The notes below the pieces were generated by a model that was not told where the DNA came from, did not search any database, and saw only the letters and a program-made list of their open reading frames with translations. A stretch of 27,552 bases of DNA from a virus, in the IMG/VR virus record IMGVR_UViG_3300036944_000289, positions 1 to 27,552 of that record, one strand, 5' to 3'. Position 1 is the stretch's first letter. Each line of letters begins with the position of its first letter. The translations under genes were made by a program, and so were the position numbers. Positions 3,226-27,526 of the stretch are shown piece after piece.

Positions 3226-3233
3226 TATTTATA
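3226..3233 (-). promoter_or_regulatory. T4-type late promoter core TATAAATA
   Basis: Exact minus-strand TATAAATA in the 46-base gap between the fibre chaperone gene and the 110-residue gene. Transcription starting about 6-7 bases downstream, as in T4, would give a short leader holding the AAGGAG ribosome site. In T4 this motif is read by the gp55 sigma factor with gp33 and the gp45 clamp; none of those genes is in this window. Confidence 0.8.
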
Positions 3234-21493: not shown

Positions 21494-21898
21494 TTATCTG
21501 ACTCTCTCTAGAACAACTTCTAAAACAACTGGCTCTTGTCTATTTATAACGTTAAACACAATCGATACGAAGACGCCGTTTTGATCTTCTGCGGATGAAC
21601 ACACAACATCAATCAGATTGCATCTAGGTTCATTCGTTCGAATTGTAGTTGATATTTGCTGCTTCATTGCAACAAGAAGTTGTGGTGTAATATTTTCAAA
21701 TAACATGGCACGAAGATGTCCGCCCAATAACGGCTGAAACAATCTCTCGCCTCTGTCTGTAAACAGTATGTTTTTGATCGATTGCTTGATGGAGTTTTCG
21801 TTCAACTTGACAGCAATGTCCTCACTGATCGGATTGAAGTCCAGATCATTTGTGAAGTCGCTGTAGATGACCCTTGACTGTATTGGAGAAGTTGCCAT
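21494..21898 (-). CDS. gp25: Baseplate wedge/sheath initiator gp25
   Basis: Small wedge subunit of the GPW/gp25 lysozyme-like fold, conserved in all contractile tails, where it joins the wedge core to the first sheath ring. Length is 134 residues against 132 in T4. Signature parts are LFTDRGERLFQPLLGGHLRA (45-64) and the EPR motif (90-92, TNEPRCNL). The fold is not enzymatic. The ATG is preceded by GAGGA 5 bases upstream and by a late promoter core in the 32-base gap before the gene. Confidence 0.95.
   Translation of the reverse strand: MATSPIQSRVIYSDFTNDLDFNPISEDIAVKLNENSIKQSIKNILFTDRGERLFQPLLGGHLRAMLFENITPQLLVAMKQQISTTIRTNEPRCNLIDVVCSSAEDQNGVFVSIVFNVINRQEPVVLEVVLERVR
21541..21548 (-). promoter_or_regulatory. 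TATAAATA late promoter core upstream of gp6
   Basis: Exact minus-strand core in the 3' part of gp25, 49 bases before the gp6 ATG. It would give a leader of about 42 bases. It is embedded in coding sequence (VINRQ region of gp25), so it is less certain than the cores at 21917, 19734 and 3226. Confidence 0.55.
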
Positions 21899-21916: not shown

Positions 21917-21924
21917 TATTTATA
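21917..21924 (-). promoter_or_regulatory. TATAAATA late promoter core before gp25
   Basis: Exact minus-strand core in the non-coding gap between the M15 peptidase gene and gp25, 19 bases before the ATG, with a GAGGA site (21904-21908) between. It separates the hub block from the wedge block in transcription. Confidence 0.8.
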
Positions 21925-21930
21925 CGATAC

Positions 21931-23583
21931 TTAGCCGTTCCATTCTCTTGCAGAAGCAACATCGCAATGAGTGAACCCGTTGTATGATCCAAACCCCACA
22001 AAACCTACCTGTTTACATAGTCTAATGAACTCAGGTTTTCTAGGTTCATTTCTGGGCATGTTATCTATATCCATAGCTTTGCCTGACCTGTGTTGAGAAT
22101 TTTTTGCAACACCAGAGTCGAATCCATTCTTGACATGCCTCAAATATGTGTTATAATAAGGATGTCTGAATCCGCTAGAGCAAATTATTCTTATTCCCAT
22201 TATTCTACCAACCTCATTCATCATTTCAAGAACATGTATATCAATGCCGTAATAACCAATCGCAGGATTGATGCCTTCTGATTTAACATTTACGATACCA
22301 CCACCATCATCCACCATTCTCAAGTTTCCGTATGTTGTCCAAAAAGGCTGACCATCTGCTGTCACAGCATTTAAAACTTGACCCGAAAATGCCAAATTCG
22401 ACCAACCGTCTGGAGGAGGGTGATTCGAAAAGTTACTTGGCACATGGATACGAGTAATAGGACCCTGTGGATCAGAAGTCACACTTGAAGCATTTGACGC
22501 ATTGACATATGCTTGACATTGTGCAGCAAGTGTTCCTGGATCTGGAACAGGTCTGCCGCCTTCTACTGCTGATCTGAGTGCATCAGCACTTCCAAGTGAC
22601 AAAGATGAGTTTACGCCTGTGATTTTAGACGCAGCACCAACAACAACATCCAAAACGGACATTAGACTATTTTCAACAGCAGTTGCCATTTTGCAGAACA
22701 AGAAAAGTAAAAATTGAATCGCTTCAATTGTCAATGTCGCAAATCCTAAAACAGCCTCTGCGATTTTAGTTGAAATGTCTGTTACCAAGTTTGCGATATT
22801 GCCATCAGATAAAGCATTTTGGACATTAACAAATTGCTTTGAGAACCAACGATTCAAACTTAATTTATTATTACCTTGTAAACCTACCATTTTTGCTATT
22901 TCTTTGCTTACTTTATCGGCAACATTTGAAACTTTGTCTTTAATACTATTGACAATATCTTTAACTGAGTTAATAAGCGAATTTGCGAATGCTTTAAGAG
23001 ATGCCGCTAATCCTGAAAGAGCGTCAAGAGGATTTTCCAAACTCGCAAGCAATTCTTTCAATGATTTAAAGCCACCTAGGAAGTCAGAAAAAAGAGATAT
23101 CGCACTTGTGATCTTATTGAAAGGATCAGACAAGAACCTACATAAAGAACTTACAGCTACACCAGCAATTGTTACTTTTAGAAAGTTGTTAAACTGTTCC
23201 ATGTGTTTTTTAGGATTATTTTGAATAGTCTCTGTCGCTGTTCCAGTTGTTGTCGCAGTGTCAACAGTATAGTTGTACTCGTTAAGAAACTCTCCATATT
23301 CTATTTGTGTGATAGCGCCTTCCGCAAGTCTATCAGTAACAAAAGTATATTCTGTTTTATCAAAAGCAGCGTTATTTAAAACGTTTGTGTTGAATAGTGT
23401 AAGAGTAGCGGCAACATCCAAGACAACATTTTGAGTTGCGAGTAATTCGTCATTCGATAATCCCGAAACGGAATTATCGTTAAAGTAAGCTGGTGTTAAC
23501 AGTGTCGTGGTTTCTGTCTGGATCGTTGTTGGTTTATTTACGCAACAATCGCATGTAGACGAATTGCAATTACAATCATCCAT
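21931..23583 (-). CDS. Hub-region protein with C-terminal M15-type Zn peptidase domain, 550 residues
   Basis: Probable virion-associated peptidoglycan-cleaving enzyme. Residues about 445-545 carry the M15 (Peptidase_M15_3-like) pattern: SSGFRHPYYN (469-478), SQHRSGKAMDID (496-507) and FTHCDV (537-542). Expected zinc ligands are H498, D505 and H539; D541 completes the usual H-x-D end. This family cuts peptide bonds in peptidoglycan stems (D-Ala-D-Ala or L-Ala-D-Glu type); the exact bond is not predictable here. The N-terminus is cysteine-rich, with five Cys in the first 14 residues. Residues about 140-235 are amphipathic helices, and about 274-297 form a hydrophobic membrane-like stretch (AVLGFATLTIEAIQFLLFLF). 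The gene lies between the lysozyme-free gp5-like spike and gp25, so it probably replaces the T4 tail lysozyme. A good AGAAGGA site precedes the ATG. Confidence 0.8.
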   Translation of the reverse strand: MDDCNCNSSTCDCCVNKPTTIQTETTTLLTPAYFNDNSVSGLSNDELLATQNVVLDVAATLTLFNTNVLNNAAFDKTEYTFVTDRLAEGAITQIEYGEFLNEYNYTVDTATTTGTATETIQNNPKKHMEQFNNFLKVTIAGVAVSSLCRFLSDPFNKITSAISLFSDFLGGFKSLKELLASLENPLDALSGLAASLKAFANSLINSVKDIVNSIKDKVSNVADKVSKEIAKMVGLQGNNKLSLNRWFSKQFVNVQNALSDGNIANLVTDISTKIAEAVLGFATLTIEAIQFLLFLFCKMATAVENSLMSVLDVVVGAASKITGVNSSLSLGSADALRSAVEGGRPVPDPGTLAAQCQAYVNASNASSVTSDPQGPITRIHVPSNFSNHPPPDGWSNLAFSGQVLNAVTADGQPFWTTYGNLRMVDDGGGIVNVKSEGINPAIGYYGIDIHVLEMMNEVGRIMGIRIICSSGFRHPYYNTYLRHVKNGFDSGVAKNSQHRSGKAMDIDNMPRNEPRKPEFIRLCKQVGFVGFGSYNGFTHCDVASAREWNG

Positions 23584-23597
23584 TGTTTTTATCCTTC

Positions 23598-24887
23598 TTA
23601 TGCATATTCAGCTTGGTCATCAACAGCATCAAGTCCCGGAGACGCTGTAGGTAGTGTTGGTTTTTTGACAGGAGATTCTTTAGCGGGAATATCGCTTGAC
23701 GGCAATTCAGTTCTATTCACATTCAATCCAGAAGCAGCTAACGCGGCTGTGTCTGCTTGTCCATTCGCCATGTTCACGAGATTGTCGATATTGACATTTG
23801 TACCTTTGATATTAATTTCACCACTTTGTATGTTAGCTTTAGTTGCTGATTTCAAATTCACATTACCTGCGCCATAGATATTCGTATCTACCGCCGCTTT
23901 GATTTCAACATTACCGTCCGCTGAGTTTAAGAAAAGAGCGCCAGAACTTTTTGCACTGATGATCTGTCCGCCGAGATGCATTTCTACTCCAGAGAAAATG
24001 TCAAAATTGTTTTGTGATTCGAGTGCCATTGAAATACCTCTTGTTCGAATTGCTTCTCCCACATTCGTATTCATGTAACCCGCAACATTCAATTCATAGT
24101 TACCAGCGACTGTAGTTTTGAGATTGCCGCCGACTTTAATAGTCATATCATTTTGCGCGTGAAGTTTTATGGAACCACCAGCAGTAATATCGTAATCACC
24201 GTAGATTGCAATTTTACCATCTGCTTCAATAAGCATATACATGGTACCACCGCTCTTAATTACAGTAGTTCCGTTTGAATCCATTTCTATATGTGATCCA
24301 GAAGTATGATACAAGTTAATTCGTTCATTACCTGGCGTGTCATCTAACTCAAATACATGTCCAGATTTTGTTTCGTGAACAAAGTTGTGTGGGTAAGAAG
24401 CATTGTATGGTGAATTTGGCTGCGACCAAGATGACCCATCAGCGCTCGTGACATTCGAAGTCGCAGTGACATTCTTTACAGCCACACTCGTTTGTTCTAC
24501 TTGTTCGGCACGTGCCAGTCTTGACATATCTGGTTGATATGAGTCACATACGTTTATAACGCCTGTTGCAGATGAAAAACCATCTGCGGGTAAAGATGGC
24601 ATCGTCGGCATACCCATCATCATGCCTATCAGCATAGGTTGTTGCGCGAATTTGCCATCAAGAAAGAAACCCCATACCCAAGAATTGAGTTGTGGTACTG
24701 TGATAGCAGAACTGTAGTTTCCAGAAATTGCGTAAGCCCATGGCAAATCCTCTGTCGGCAAAATTGCTTTGTCTTCTGTGTGAAAGCCGAAGCATCTTAC
24801 GCGGGATCTTCCTAACTTCTGGGGGTCGTTATTATCTTCAACAACGCCCATAAACCAAAGTAAATCTTTAAATCCTTTATCACTCAT
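23598..24887 (-). CDS. gp5: Baseplate spike gp5-like, without lysozyme domain
   Basis: Cell-puncturing spike related to T4 gp5 and VgrG tips. Residues about 1-100 form the OB-fold (DLLWFMGVVEDNNDPQKLGR then SRVRCFGFH, LPWAYAI, WVWGFFLDG, QQPMLIGMM). A linker runs to about 160. Then YPHNFVHETKSGHVFELDD and the following NLYHTSGSHIEMD lead into a triple beta-helix to about residue 370. T4 gp5 (575 residues) has a lysozyme domain between OB-fold and helix; the linker here is too short for one and has no lysozyme motif. The tail after the helix (KKPTLPTASPGLD) is Pro-rich and flexible. The start overlaps the gp27-like stop as ATGA, consistent with making the gp27-gp5 hub complex together. Confidence 0.88.
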   Translation of the reverse strand: MSDKGFKDLLWFMGVVEDNNDPQKLGRSRVRCFGFHTEDKAILPTEDLPWAYAISGNYSSAITVPQLNSWVWGFFLDGKFAQQPMLIGMMMGMPTMPSLPADGFSSATGVINVCDSYQPDMSRLARAEQVEQTSVAVKNVTATSNVTSADGSSWSQPNSPYNASYPHNFVHETKSGHVFELDDTPGNERINLYHTSGSHIEMDSNGTTVIKSGGTMYMLIEADGKIAIYGDYDITAGGSIKLHAQNDMTIKVGGNLKTTVAGNYELNVAGYMNTNVGEAIRTRGISMALESQNNFDIFSGVEMHLGGQIISAKSSGALFLNSADGNVEIKAAVDTNIYGAGNVNLKSATKANIQSGEINIKGTNVNIDNLVNMANGQADTAALAASGLNVNRTELPSSDIPAKESPVKKPTLPTASPGLDAVDDQAEYA

Positions 24888-26128
24888 AATGCGCCCTCAC
24901 CCTTCAATGCGTCTTTTAGAAGACCAGCTGTCATTTTCCATTTGCTTCCGTCATATACAGATTTTAAGTTGGCAACCATATAGAGTCCGGAAAGCGTTTT
25001 GTGTAGTTTCACATAATCATTCGCGCTTGACAAATCTTGTAATTCAAGTCGAATTAGATCACCTATATTCATGTTATTTGCACCATAAAAATCCACATAC
25101 ATTAAAATGCTGTTTAGATAATACGAAGTCGAGAGTCTTTGTGAAACCATATCTTGATATGTCTGATCAGTTCTTGTTGAATCTTGAAACACCAAATAGT
25201 CATTTGTGATATTATCATCACCAAAAAATTCTTCGTTAAATTTAGGCGTGTGGTAATCTTGTTGGACGCTATCCGTATGTTTATATTCTTTGACTTTTTC
25301 GTAGTGCTTGTAGTCGATATTTTCATAAGTTCTGGTTGCCAAATCTAGTTTGATCACGCGACTAATAGGTGCGCCTCTTCTCATCTCTTCAATAAGATTG
25401 AACCTCTTATTCAAACTGAAAGCCTGAATTTTATTCATTTGCGCAACTCTATCTTCAATGTCAGCATTTACCGAAGAGTAGTAATATTTCTTTTCTGTTG
25501 ATTGACCATCTTCAAATAACTTCTCGTGTGTGCCAAAGAAATACTTGTCTTTTCTTTCGAAGAACAGAAAGTTGCTGGACTTATAAACATCGCTAAACGA
25601 TTTTGTAGCCATCATCATCATAGTTTCAATTGGCGTCAAGTTCGGAACAACAATAACATTCTCACCAACAGTGTCTTCTATTTCTATTGCCTTTTTAGAA
25701 ATAAAGTATTCGTTGTAAATACTCTTGACAATTTCGCTTATTCTGCCTTTATACGAAAAACTAATTTCAACAGATTCCGATTTGATGTAGTCTTTTGAAA
25801 ACATCCTCATGACATAAAACTGGGATGTTCCAAGATCATTTGTCACAAGCGTATCGACTGCATAAATGTGAAAATTATAGGTAGTCGTTTGCTTAAAGAA
25901 GTCTTCAATCTCTAATACCAATTGCTCTTCGCCGAGAAGAGGAAACGAATCGATTATGTTTGTTGCGTCTGCGATTGTCAATAGTCCATGAATAGACACC
26001 TTTGAAATGTCTTCTTGTATTTCCATATTAGTGATCATGTCACCAATGGAAATCTTTTTGGTACCATCGTAATTTGACAGTTCACACTTCTTTACGATGT
26101 AACCACCCGGCTCAATGTTATCACTCAT
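24884..26128 (-). CDS. gp27: Baseplate hub protein gp27-like
   Basis: Probable hub subunit whose trimer holds the spike and continues the tail tube. Length is 414 residues against 391 in T4. The N-terminal GGYIVKKCELSNYDG, DMITNMEIQEDISKVSI and LLGEEQLVLEIEDFF, then VIVVPNLTPIETMMMMA and SNFLFFERKDKYFFGTHEKL (185-204), follow the gp27/VgrG-head pattern seen in marine T4-type phages. Proteins of this kind are sometimes labelled VrlC-like. The gene overlaps gp53 by 8 bases and the gp5-like gene by 4, fitting a hub-spike operon. Identity rests on pattern and position rather than close sequence match. Confidence 0.75.
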   Translation of the reverse strand: MSDNIEPGGYIVKKCELSNYDGTKKISIGDMITNMEIQEDISKVSIHGLLTIADATNIIDSFPLLGEEQLVLEIEDFFKQTTTYNFHIYAVDTLVTNDLGTSQFYVMRMFSKDYIKSESVEISFSYKGRISEIVKSIYNEYFISKKAIEIEDTVGENVIVVPNLTPIETMMMMATKSFSDVYKSSNFLFFERKDKYFFGTHEKLFEDGQSTEKKYYYSSVNADIEDRVAQMNKIQAFSLNKRFNLIEEMRRGAPISRVIKLDLATRTYENIDYKHYEKVKEYKHTDSVQQDYHTPKFNEEFFGDDNITNDYLVFQDSTRTDQTYQDMVSQRLSTSYYLNSILMYVDFYGANNMNIGDLIRLELQDLSSANDYVKLHKTLSGLYMVANLKSVYDGSKWKMTAGLLKDALKGEGAL

Positions 26129-26699
26129 TCAAAAGTCTCGCTAAGTTTCTTTCGGCAATTGACACGTATTCTTTATTCAATAGGCTGATGTTTCTTTTTG
26201 ATTCGTTTGCTTCAAATTCATCTTCATAAACCCTCACTGCTACCCAGTCCGCAGCATCGTTTACAAAGGCAATACCATCTTTGTTCATTCTTACTGAAGG
26301 ATCGCTAATGCGTCTGTAGTAAACGATGTTGGATGTTATTGCAGTATTCAAAGTCCACTCTACCACTTTTTGCCAGCCAACGTTGCTTGATGACGCAGCC
26401 TTTGCCCTTGCAGCATATGTTTTGCCCAATGTTTGTTCAAACTCATAAGTGCCTAGAGGCCACTCAAAATATGGATCAATGACATTGTTCGACAAGTAGA
26501 CAAGCCAAACAAGTCGAGGATCGCCGTAGTAATAGTATGCAACGTCCTCCGCTCTTTCACCGTCTTTGACTGTGTAAGGTAAGAACGCATACGAATCTGT
26601 CTTGATATTTTCCAGAATATCAAGACGGACGCTAATGTCGCGGACCAATTCGTTGTTGTATGTGATGATTGGAAAATCTTCAAAAAATTCTTTTGTCAT
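26121..26699 (-). CDS. gp53: Baseplate wedge protein gp53
   Basis: Wedge subunit that clamps adjacent wedges onto the hub in T4. Length is 192 residues against 196. The opening FFEDFPIITYNNELVRDI and the core YTVKDGERAEDVAYYYYGD with RLVWLVYLSNNVIDPYFEWP (42-81) are diagnostic; this core has a LysM-like fold in T4. It starts 2 bases after the gp48-like stop with a strong GGGAG site overlapping that stop region, so coupling is likely. Confidence 0.93.
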   Translation of the reverse strand: MTKEFFEDFPIITYNNELVRDISVRLDILENIKTDSYAFLPYTVKDGERAEDVAYYYYGDPRLVWLVYLSNNVIDPYFEWPLGTYEFEQTLGKTYAARAKAASSSNVGWQKVVEWTLNTAITSNIVYYRRISDPSVRMNKDGIAFVNDAADWVAVRVYEDEFEANESKRNISLLNKEYVSIAERNLARLLNE

Positions 26700-26701
26700 A
26701 A

Positions 26702-27526
26702 CTATCTCCCTTTGCCCAAAATCGGCACAGATGAGGAAGTGCTTTCTCCGCCGTAATCTTCTGATGTGTGAATGTCAATTTCTGTTAGCGATATGGTTAG
26801 CGTCACAACAGCAGGCTTACCACCTTCTACGAAAGCGGGTGCACCACTGCCAGAGTAGTTGACTTCAACCTGACTGATCATTGCGCGTTTGAAGTAGTAC
26901 ATGAAACCTTCGGTAGTTCCAAGAAAGAAGATATCAACAACATTAGGGTAGTTCAAAAATACTTTTTGACCGAATGTGTTGTTGAAAGAAGGTAAAGCAC
27001 TTTTCTTTATTTGCTGGATAATGGCTCTGAGTTTTTCCGATTCGTCAGCCGATCTAGGAGCAAGTGTCCAAGTGAACGTATGCGACTTCAGGTCAACGCC
27101 TTCAAACGCAAGTGCGATCCTTGGGTTGACTACATTTCCAGAAGCAACTTCAATTGCCTTTGCAGTATTTGTTCCGCCAACACTATCAAAAGCAGCAGCA
27201 GCTTTTCTTGCGACTTGCCCAGAAAATGCTCCCTTTGCTGCTGTCAATACGCCCTCAGCGGTTAAATTGCCACTACCAGCAGCCGAGACCACATCTCTTA
27301 CTGCATTCCCAACTGAACCGAGTTCTGTCGGAAGAACTCGTATGCTGAAAGTGTCTGCTAGATTGCTTGGAACAGGAAGCGCAATTGAACTACTTAGAAC
27401 TTGATTTACTTGCGAACCAATTCCACCATAATCATATGCTGAAAAATTCAAAATCATTGCGTGATTGCCTAGATCATTAGGAAAAGAAAACTGAGTATAG
27501 GTGTTAGTTCTTCTTCTATTAGCCAT
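26702..27526 (-). CDS. gp48: Tail-tube cap/initiator gp48 (gp54 family)
   Basis: Baseplate-tail tube junction protein on which the tube starts to polymerise. Length is 274 residues, shorter than T4 gp48 (364) and gp54 (320), which are homologous to each other. Visible features are the N-terminal FSFPNDLGNHAMILNFSAYD, a central Ala/Gly-rich helical part, then SHTFTWTLAPRSADESEKLR and FYYxK-like GFMYYFKRAMISQVEVNYSG, a tube-like beta fold, and VVTLTISLTEIDIHT near the end. Start chosen at the ATG 4 bases after AGAAGG. Which of gp48 or gp54 it represents is not certain; gp48 is preferred because it commonly sits beside gp53 in marine T4-type phages. No second copy lies in the window. Confidence 0.75.
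   Translation of the reverse strand: MANRRRTNTYTQFSFPNDLGNHAMILNFSAYDYGGIGSQVNQVLSSSIALPVPSNLADTFSIRVLPTELGSVGNAVRDVVSAAGSGNLTAEGVLTAAKGAFSGQVARKAAAAFDSVGGTNTAKAIEVASGNVVNPRIALAFEGVDLKSHTFTWTLAPRSADESEKLRAIIQQIKKSALPSFNNTFGQKVFLNYPNVVDIFFLGTTEGFMYYFKRAMISQVEVNYSGSGAPAFVEGGKPAVVTLTISLTEIDIHTSEDYGGESTSSSVPILGKGR

Follow-up and report, generated by a model that had tools for sequence, protein, structure and literature searches.

An enzyme-free gp5-like spike and a separate helical M15 peptidase-domain protein in a T4-type baseplate gene cluster

Introduction

The central spike protein of phage T4, gp5, carries its lysozyme between an OB fold and a beta-prism, and T4-like tails are not the only ones to be linked with wall-cutting enzymes. 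The g14 protein of RcGTA is a separate tail peptidoglycan peptidase encoded beside hub genes, and has been proposed to reside in the tail channel and open the wall as entry proceeds (PMC7296036). The hub protein gp15 of phage A-1(L) contains both endoglucanase and peptidase domains, of which the peptidase domain is active on cells (PMC10966104), and a baseplate protein of phage CBB may contain an M23 domain. Among cellular enzymes, E. coli MepK (YcbK) prefers 3-3 (mDAP-mDAP) cross-links (PMC9249393). The walls of rhizobial hosts are rich in L,D cross-links, which make up roughly 30% of all cross-links in Agrobacterium versus 1–5% in E. coli (PMC11527210).

Here we describe a 27.5-kb fragment of a virus contig (27,552 nucleotides, hereafter the window) in which a gp5-like gene is followed by a gene for a protein ending in an M15 zinc-peptidase domain. 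For this phage, the enzyme searches reported below cover the fragment, and further enzymes may be encoded elsewhere in the genome.

Results

The baseplate gene cluster. The long minus-strand ORFs of the window build a T4-type baseplate cluster in the order tube cap, gp53, gp27-like, gp5-like, M15 protein, gp25, gp6, gp7-like and gp8, followed on the same strand by long baseplate and tail-fibre genes (Table 1). The M15 gene is the final one of the gp54/48–gp53–gp27–gp5 run, has a good ribosome-binding site, and starts 14 bases past the gp5 stop. Because the late-promoter-like sequence TATAAATA precedes gp25, the arrangement suggests that the gp5 transcription unit ends with the M15 gene. This sequence occurs seven times in the window (at positions 3226, 8580, 8728, 11639, 19734, 21541 and 21917), always on the coding strand, and none of 100 shuffles reached that number; the seven sites are likely to be T4-type late promoters. 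The slot of the M15 gene between gp5 and gp25 is kept in IMG/VR relatives, and a scan of bacterial genome contigs found no relative.

Table 1. Features of the spike and M15 genes and their neighbours (window coordinates)
Feature	Position	Strand	Basis or remark
Tail tube cap (gp54/48-like)	26702..27526	-	Pfam and PHROGs
gp53-like baseplate wedge protein	26121..26699	-	Pfam and PHROGs
gp27-like hub protein (phrog_350), without enzyme domain	24884..26128	-	Pfam and PHROGs
gp5-like central spike, 429 aa, without lysozyme	23598..24887	-	Gp5_OB over cut-off; phrog_430, 4.9e-78
OB fold of spike, residues about 10-90	24618..24860	-	Pfam, AlphaFold model, fold match
Short linker, residues about 110-154, at the position of the T4 gp5 lysozyme	24426..24560	-	T4 alignment
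Beta-prism/trimerisation region of spike	23778..24440	-	Gp5_trimer_C-like; pLDDT mostly >90
550-aa helical protein with C-terminal M15 (MepK/DUF882-type) zinc-peptidase domain	21931..23583	-	Pfam M15_2/M15_3
Long helical region, residues about 115-366	22486..23241	-	Predicted helices, low confidence
Most hydrophobic segment, residues 277-303	22675..22755	-	Hydropathy scan, 19-residue maximum 2.0
M15 peptidase domain, residues about 448-550	21934..22242	-	Pfam, MepK alignment, Foldseek
H498, predicted Zn ligand 1, S-x-H-x-x-G-x-A-x-D motif	22090..22092	-	Motif and relatives
D505, predicted Zn ligand 2	22069..22071	-	Motif and relatives
H539, predicted Zn ligand 3, F-x-H-x-D motif	21967..21969	-	Motif and relatives
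D541, invariant H+2 aspartate, common to E. coli MepK	21961..21963	-	Alignments
TATAAATA, T4 late-promoter-like	21917..21924	-	Between M15 stop and gp25
gp25-like baseplate wedge protein, adjoining the M15 gene downstream	21494..21898	-	Pfam and PHROGs

A spike without lysozyme. The gp5-like ORF is intact, and its product shares the OB fold and beta-prism of T4 gp5 and lacks the lysozyme domain that lies between them in T4. In alignments with PDB sequences, residues 8–110 correspond to T4 gp5 residues 7–120 and residues 115–240 to T4 residues 337–462, so that the alignment skips from T4 residue 120 to 337–377 and passes over the lysozyme. An AlphaFold model built with 42 homologues (mean pLDDT 79) contained no lysozyme-like helical domain, and its best structure matches were T4 gp5 (9mkb and 1k28, E about 1e-17; 2.6e-17 for the fold match); the short spike of phage P1 also matched at a lower rank (9vzk, 6.5e-10). 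Pfam and PHROGs searches for lysozymes in the gp27-like and all other window proteins gave none, nor did searching the window plus 16 related records directly for GH24 (PF00959), or the window and phage phiN3 for GH108. The absence of lysozyme from the gp5-like protein that was asserted in a preliminary description of this DNA is thus borne out by the T4 alignment, the model, Pfam, PHROGs and the GH24 search, and no such domain was detected in the gp27-like protein by Pfam, PHROGs or the GH24 search. We rejected the idea that the spike is a frameshifted or truncated gp5 that lost its lysozyme through an assembly error, since the gp5 proteins of the relatives L006, L007 and L010 are likewise enzyme-free and of similar length, and the gp5 and M15 genes are cleanly separated by 14 bases that include a ribosome-binding site.

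The M15 protein. The downstream ORF is also intact, and residues 76–549 of its product match phrog_25247 'peptidase' (5.9e-52). The C-terminal domain passed the curated cut-offs of two Pfam families, Peptidase_M15_2 (PF05951; 9.7e-9, 35.6 bits against 27) and Peptidase_M15_3 (PF08291; 3.4e-7, 30.8 bits against 23.2). It aligned with E. coli MepK at 49.3 bits across both the S-x-H-x-x-G-x-A-x-D and F-x-H-x-D...W motifs; MepK, however, is a stand-alone cellular enzyme of 182 aa, whereas the window domain ends a helical phage protein. The predicted ligands have the LAS-type M15 spacing, with His and Asp 7 apart and a distal His, and the full ligand motif did not occur once in 20,000 shuffles of the protein. 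H498, D505, H539 and D541 are invariant in L006, L007, L008, L010, phiN3 and Ochrobactrum phage OC, and D541 may be a catalytic or positioning residue. A profile made from seven M15 domains matched the zinc DD-carboxypeptidase 1LBU (E 3.5e-5) and also hedgehog domains; when this domain alignment was used to look for distant matches, no usable pattern emerged. The full-length model was of low confidence (pLDDT 48.6), and nearly all top Foldseek matches of its C-terminal part were M15/hedgehog-fold structures, led by IhhN, 1LBU and BaLdcB (probability about 1.0, E about 0.1). By these sequence comparisons the domain is of the MepK/DUF882 type. The neighbouring M15 peptidase and its three ligands had been named previously with correct numbering, and the amide rather than glycan chemistry proposed with them stands as an expectation drawn from M15 family membership.

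The helical part of the protein extends over residues about 57–366. Its long region at about 115–366 resembles tape-measure proteins in composition, and its tape-measure PHROG matches are weak. Residues 4–14 of the protein are cysteine-rich (CNCNSSTCDCC), a feature also seen in L006, L007 and L009 and absent from L010 and phiN3.

Relatives in Sinorhizobium phages. Among isolated phages, only Sinorhizobium phages phiN3, phiM7, phiM12 and phiM19 encode homologues along most of the M15 protein. The phiN3 homologue (gp109), annotated 'peptidase M15', has about 30% identity over 86% of the window protein, the same helical plus M15 architecture and the same Zn ligands, and we checked that it occupies the same slot between gp5 and gp25. 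The near full-length homology and this synteny place the window protein in phrog_25247, and a separate M15 protein in this slot is therefore already in the databases and not new. phiN3 is the nearest isolated relative, and the two phages differ in their spikes: phiN3 gp5 has an extra, unannotated lambda-lysozyme-like domain at residues about 401–537 (L002:7142-8755; phrog_90 endolysin, 5e-13), which the window gp5 lacks. The gp5 of L013 (L013:5524-7149), whose contig ends right after the gene, shares this C-terminal domain, with matches to 1AM7 and 3D3D at 0.003. Because of this gp5 end and the separate M15 protein, the phiN3 hub seems to hold both chemistries; the window version, as far as the 27.5-kb fragment shows, would hold the peptidase only.

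Survey of gp5 homologues. We compared 86 gp5 homologue loci, which are not independent, several being near-identical. An enzyme was found in gp5 only at 22 of the 86 and as a separate M15 protein only at 23, one of which is the ligand-less version described below; phiN3 was the single locus (1/86) with both. In the remaining 40, about seven of them on truncated contigs, an enzyme was detected neither in gp5 nor in the neighbouring protein. Since about 33 untruncated loci show neither, T4-like phages can apparently do without an enzyme at this place. Lysozyme-free gp5 is common among the homologues.

The enzymes themselves varied in type and placement. Enzyme-free gp5 is accompanied by a separate M15_2/3-type protein in the window, L006–L008 and L010, and by a separate VanY/M15_4-type protein in L014–L031; in L021, L026 and L027 the latter is split into two adjacent ORFs, for the helical and the peptidase part. 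Profile comparison gave only a 40–47% probability of homology between the helical parts of the two neighbour types, which do agree in position and in a GRP motif. An M15 domain forms the C-terminus of gp5 in L033–L048, and the gp5 of phage OC carries M15 and Phage_lysozyme2 in the lysozyme slot. BUCT-ZZ01 gp5 has GH19 in the slot and an M15-like end, Melnitz-3 has an OB plus VanY-like protein, and CHAP or VgrG3-like gp5 ends occur in L080 and L082. The OC and BUCT-ZZ01 proteins (L003:8374-10800 and L004:7989-10808) are annotated merely as lysozyme or hub subunit.

All separate-M15 loci included in a tree of the gp5 core formed one 19-row clade (support 100/99), in a tree that is unrooted, with a midpoint root for drawing only and long branches that leave the deeper joins unsure. 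The earlier proposal that the wall-cutting step had 'moved' out of gp5 is thus not established: the tree gives no direction, no examined member of the clade has a T4-type lysozyme slot as a source, and phiN3 gp5 retains its lambda-lysozyme-like C-terminus alongside a separate M15 protein.

A lineage without zinc ligands. In a sister lineage (L088:878-2461, L089:1801-3264 and L090:9869-11491), a homologue along most of the M15 protein has H498 replaced by M, D505 by E and H539 by Y. The lineage keeps both the protein and the gene position, and the homologue matches phrog_25247 at 2.4e-12 over residues 82–531; no enzyme domain was detected in the gp5 of L090. The M15 domain of these three loci is probably dead, judging from its ligand positions, within a baseplate-cluster protein. 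Because the ligands were lost and the protein was kept, catalysis is not its sole possible role, and this suggests that the M15 protein has a structural role beside catalysis.

Discussion

We consider it probable that the window M15 protein serves DNA entry as a peptidoglycan endopeptidase associated with the tail hub; its place in the virion, its activity, the bond it would cut and the moment at which it would act are inferred. The helical part would hold the protein at or inside the hub or tube lumen, beside the enzyme-free gp5 spike. Sheath contraction would drive gp5 through the outer membrane and expose the C-terminal M15 domain to the periplasm, where the domain, with Zn on H498, D505 and H539 and a MepK-like pocket, could cut stem-peptide cross-links and so open the wall for the tube. 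This reading is supported by the M15 domain with its intact ligands and MepK-type alignment, the gp27–gp5–M15 gene run, the 14-base spacing, the ribosome-binding site and the late-promoter-like TATAAATA, the slot shared with phiN3 and IMG/VR relatives, the restriction of a gp5 enzyme plus separate M15 to phiN3 among the 86 loci, and by the precedents of RcGTA g14, the A-1(L) hub peptidase and the possible M23 domain of CBB. M15 domains that form an inner or terminal part of gp5 in OC, BUCT-ZZ01, Melnitz-3 and L033–L048 tie this enzyme class to the spike. The precedents differ in construction. RcGTA g14 has 150 residues without the helical plus M15 architecture, and is part of a gene transfer agent rather than of a T4-like phage. 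In A-1(L) gp15 and OC gp5 a peptidase is present in the hub or spike of a contractile tail, but their enzyme is fused into the hub or gp5 with a glycan-cutting domain.

M15 domains are frequent in endolysins, and the protein could instead be a lysis endolysin that merely sits in the structural cluster. The M15 domain matches phrog_894 'endolysin', and the phiN3 genome has a single PF08291 match, with no GH24 or GH108 lysozyme found there. We regard this as improbable, however, because the relatives have the gene within their baseplate cluster, between gp5 and gp25, the domain follows a large helical part of the kind typical for tail proteins, the same enzyme class occurs inside the gp5 of other phages, and L088–L090 retained a version without ligands. 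By location, the M15 gene is flanked by gp5 and gp25, and none of the genes named beside it is a lysis gene. The retention of the ligand-less version argues in turn for a structural role, and in its strongest form this would make the M15 domain mainly structural or wall-binding and its catalysis dispensable, given that L088–L090 lost all three Zn ligands and kept the whole protein. For the window protein that extreme is very improbable, as neither the ligands nor the motif residues around them vary across the window clade, L010 and phiN3.

Among versions of the entry role itself, the protein may be a tape-measure-like internal or pilot protein of the tube that is ejected into the periplasm, where its peptidase acts, and its hydrophobic segment may enter the inner membrane. 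The long helical region, the weak tape-measure PHROG matches and the conserved hydrophobic segment are consistent with this, as is the RcGTA peptidase, which has been proposed to lie in the tail channel and then be released. The tape-measure matches are probably compositional, however, and another long, coiled, hydrophobic ORF in the L090 contig, with no match in PHROGs, may be the tape measure; we therefore hold ejection to be possible but somewhat doubtful. More speculative, and in our judgement unlikely, is a hub that breaches the wall without any glycan-cutting enzyme, solely by a MepK-type endopeptidase tuned to the L,D (3-3) cross-links of the host, with the sister lineage having made the protein a dead structural part. 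If this were true, T4-like phages would choose their spike chemistry to fit the cross-link type of the host. A MepK-like 3-3 preference would fit rhizobial hosts.

The enzyme-free spike with a separate peptidase clearly represents a variant of an arrangement that is already known. It is not unprecedented, because the enzymes of related phages sit inside the spike, beside the spike, or are catalytically dead. The comparison shows the wall-cutting enzyme of T4-like tails to be an exchangeable module, which may be internal to gp5, terminal to it or part of a neighbouring protein, varying between glycan chemistry, peptide chemistry and a dead form.

We looked for a PAAR spike-tip gene and found none in the 27.5-kb fragment. 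Members of the other gp5 clade have a PAAR-like gene immediately after gp5, and phiN3 has a PAAR-like match (PF05488) at KR052482.1:115660-115800, in a CDS annotated 'phospholipase' that is far from gp5.
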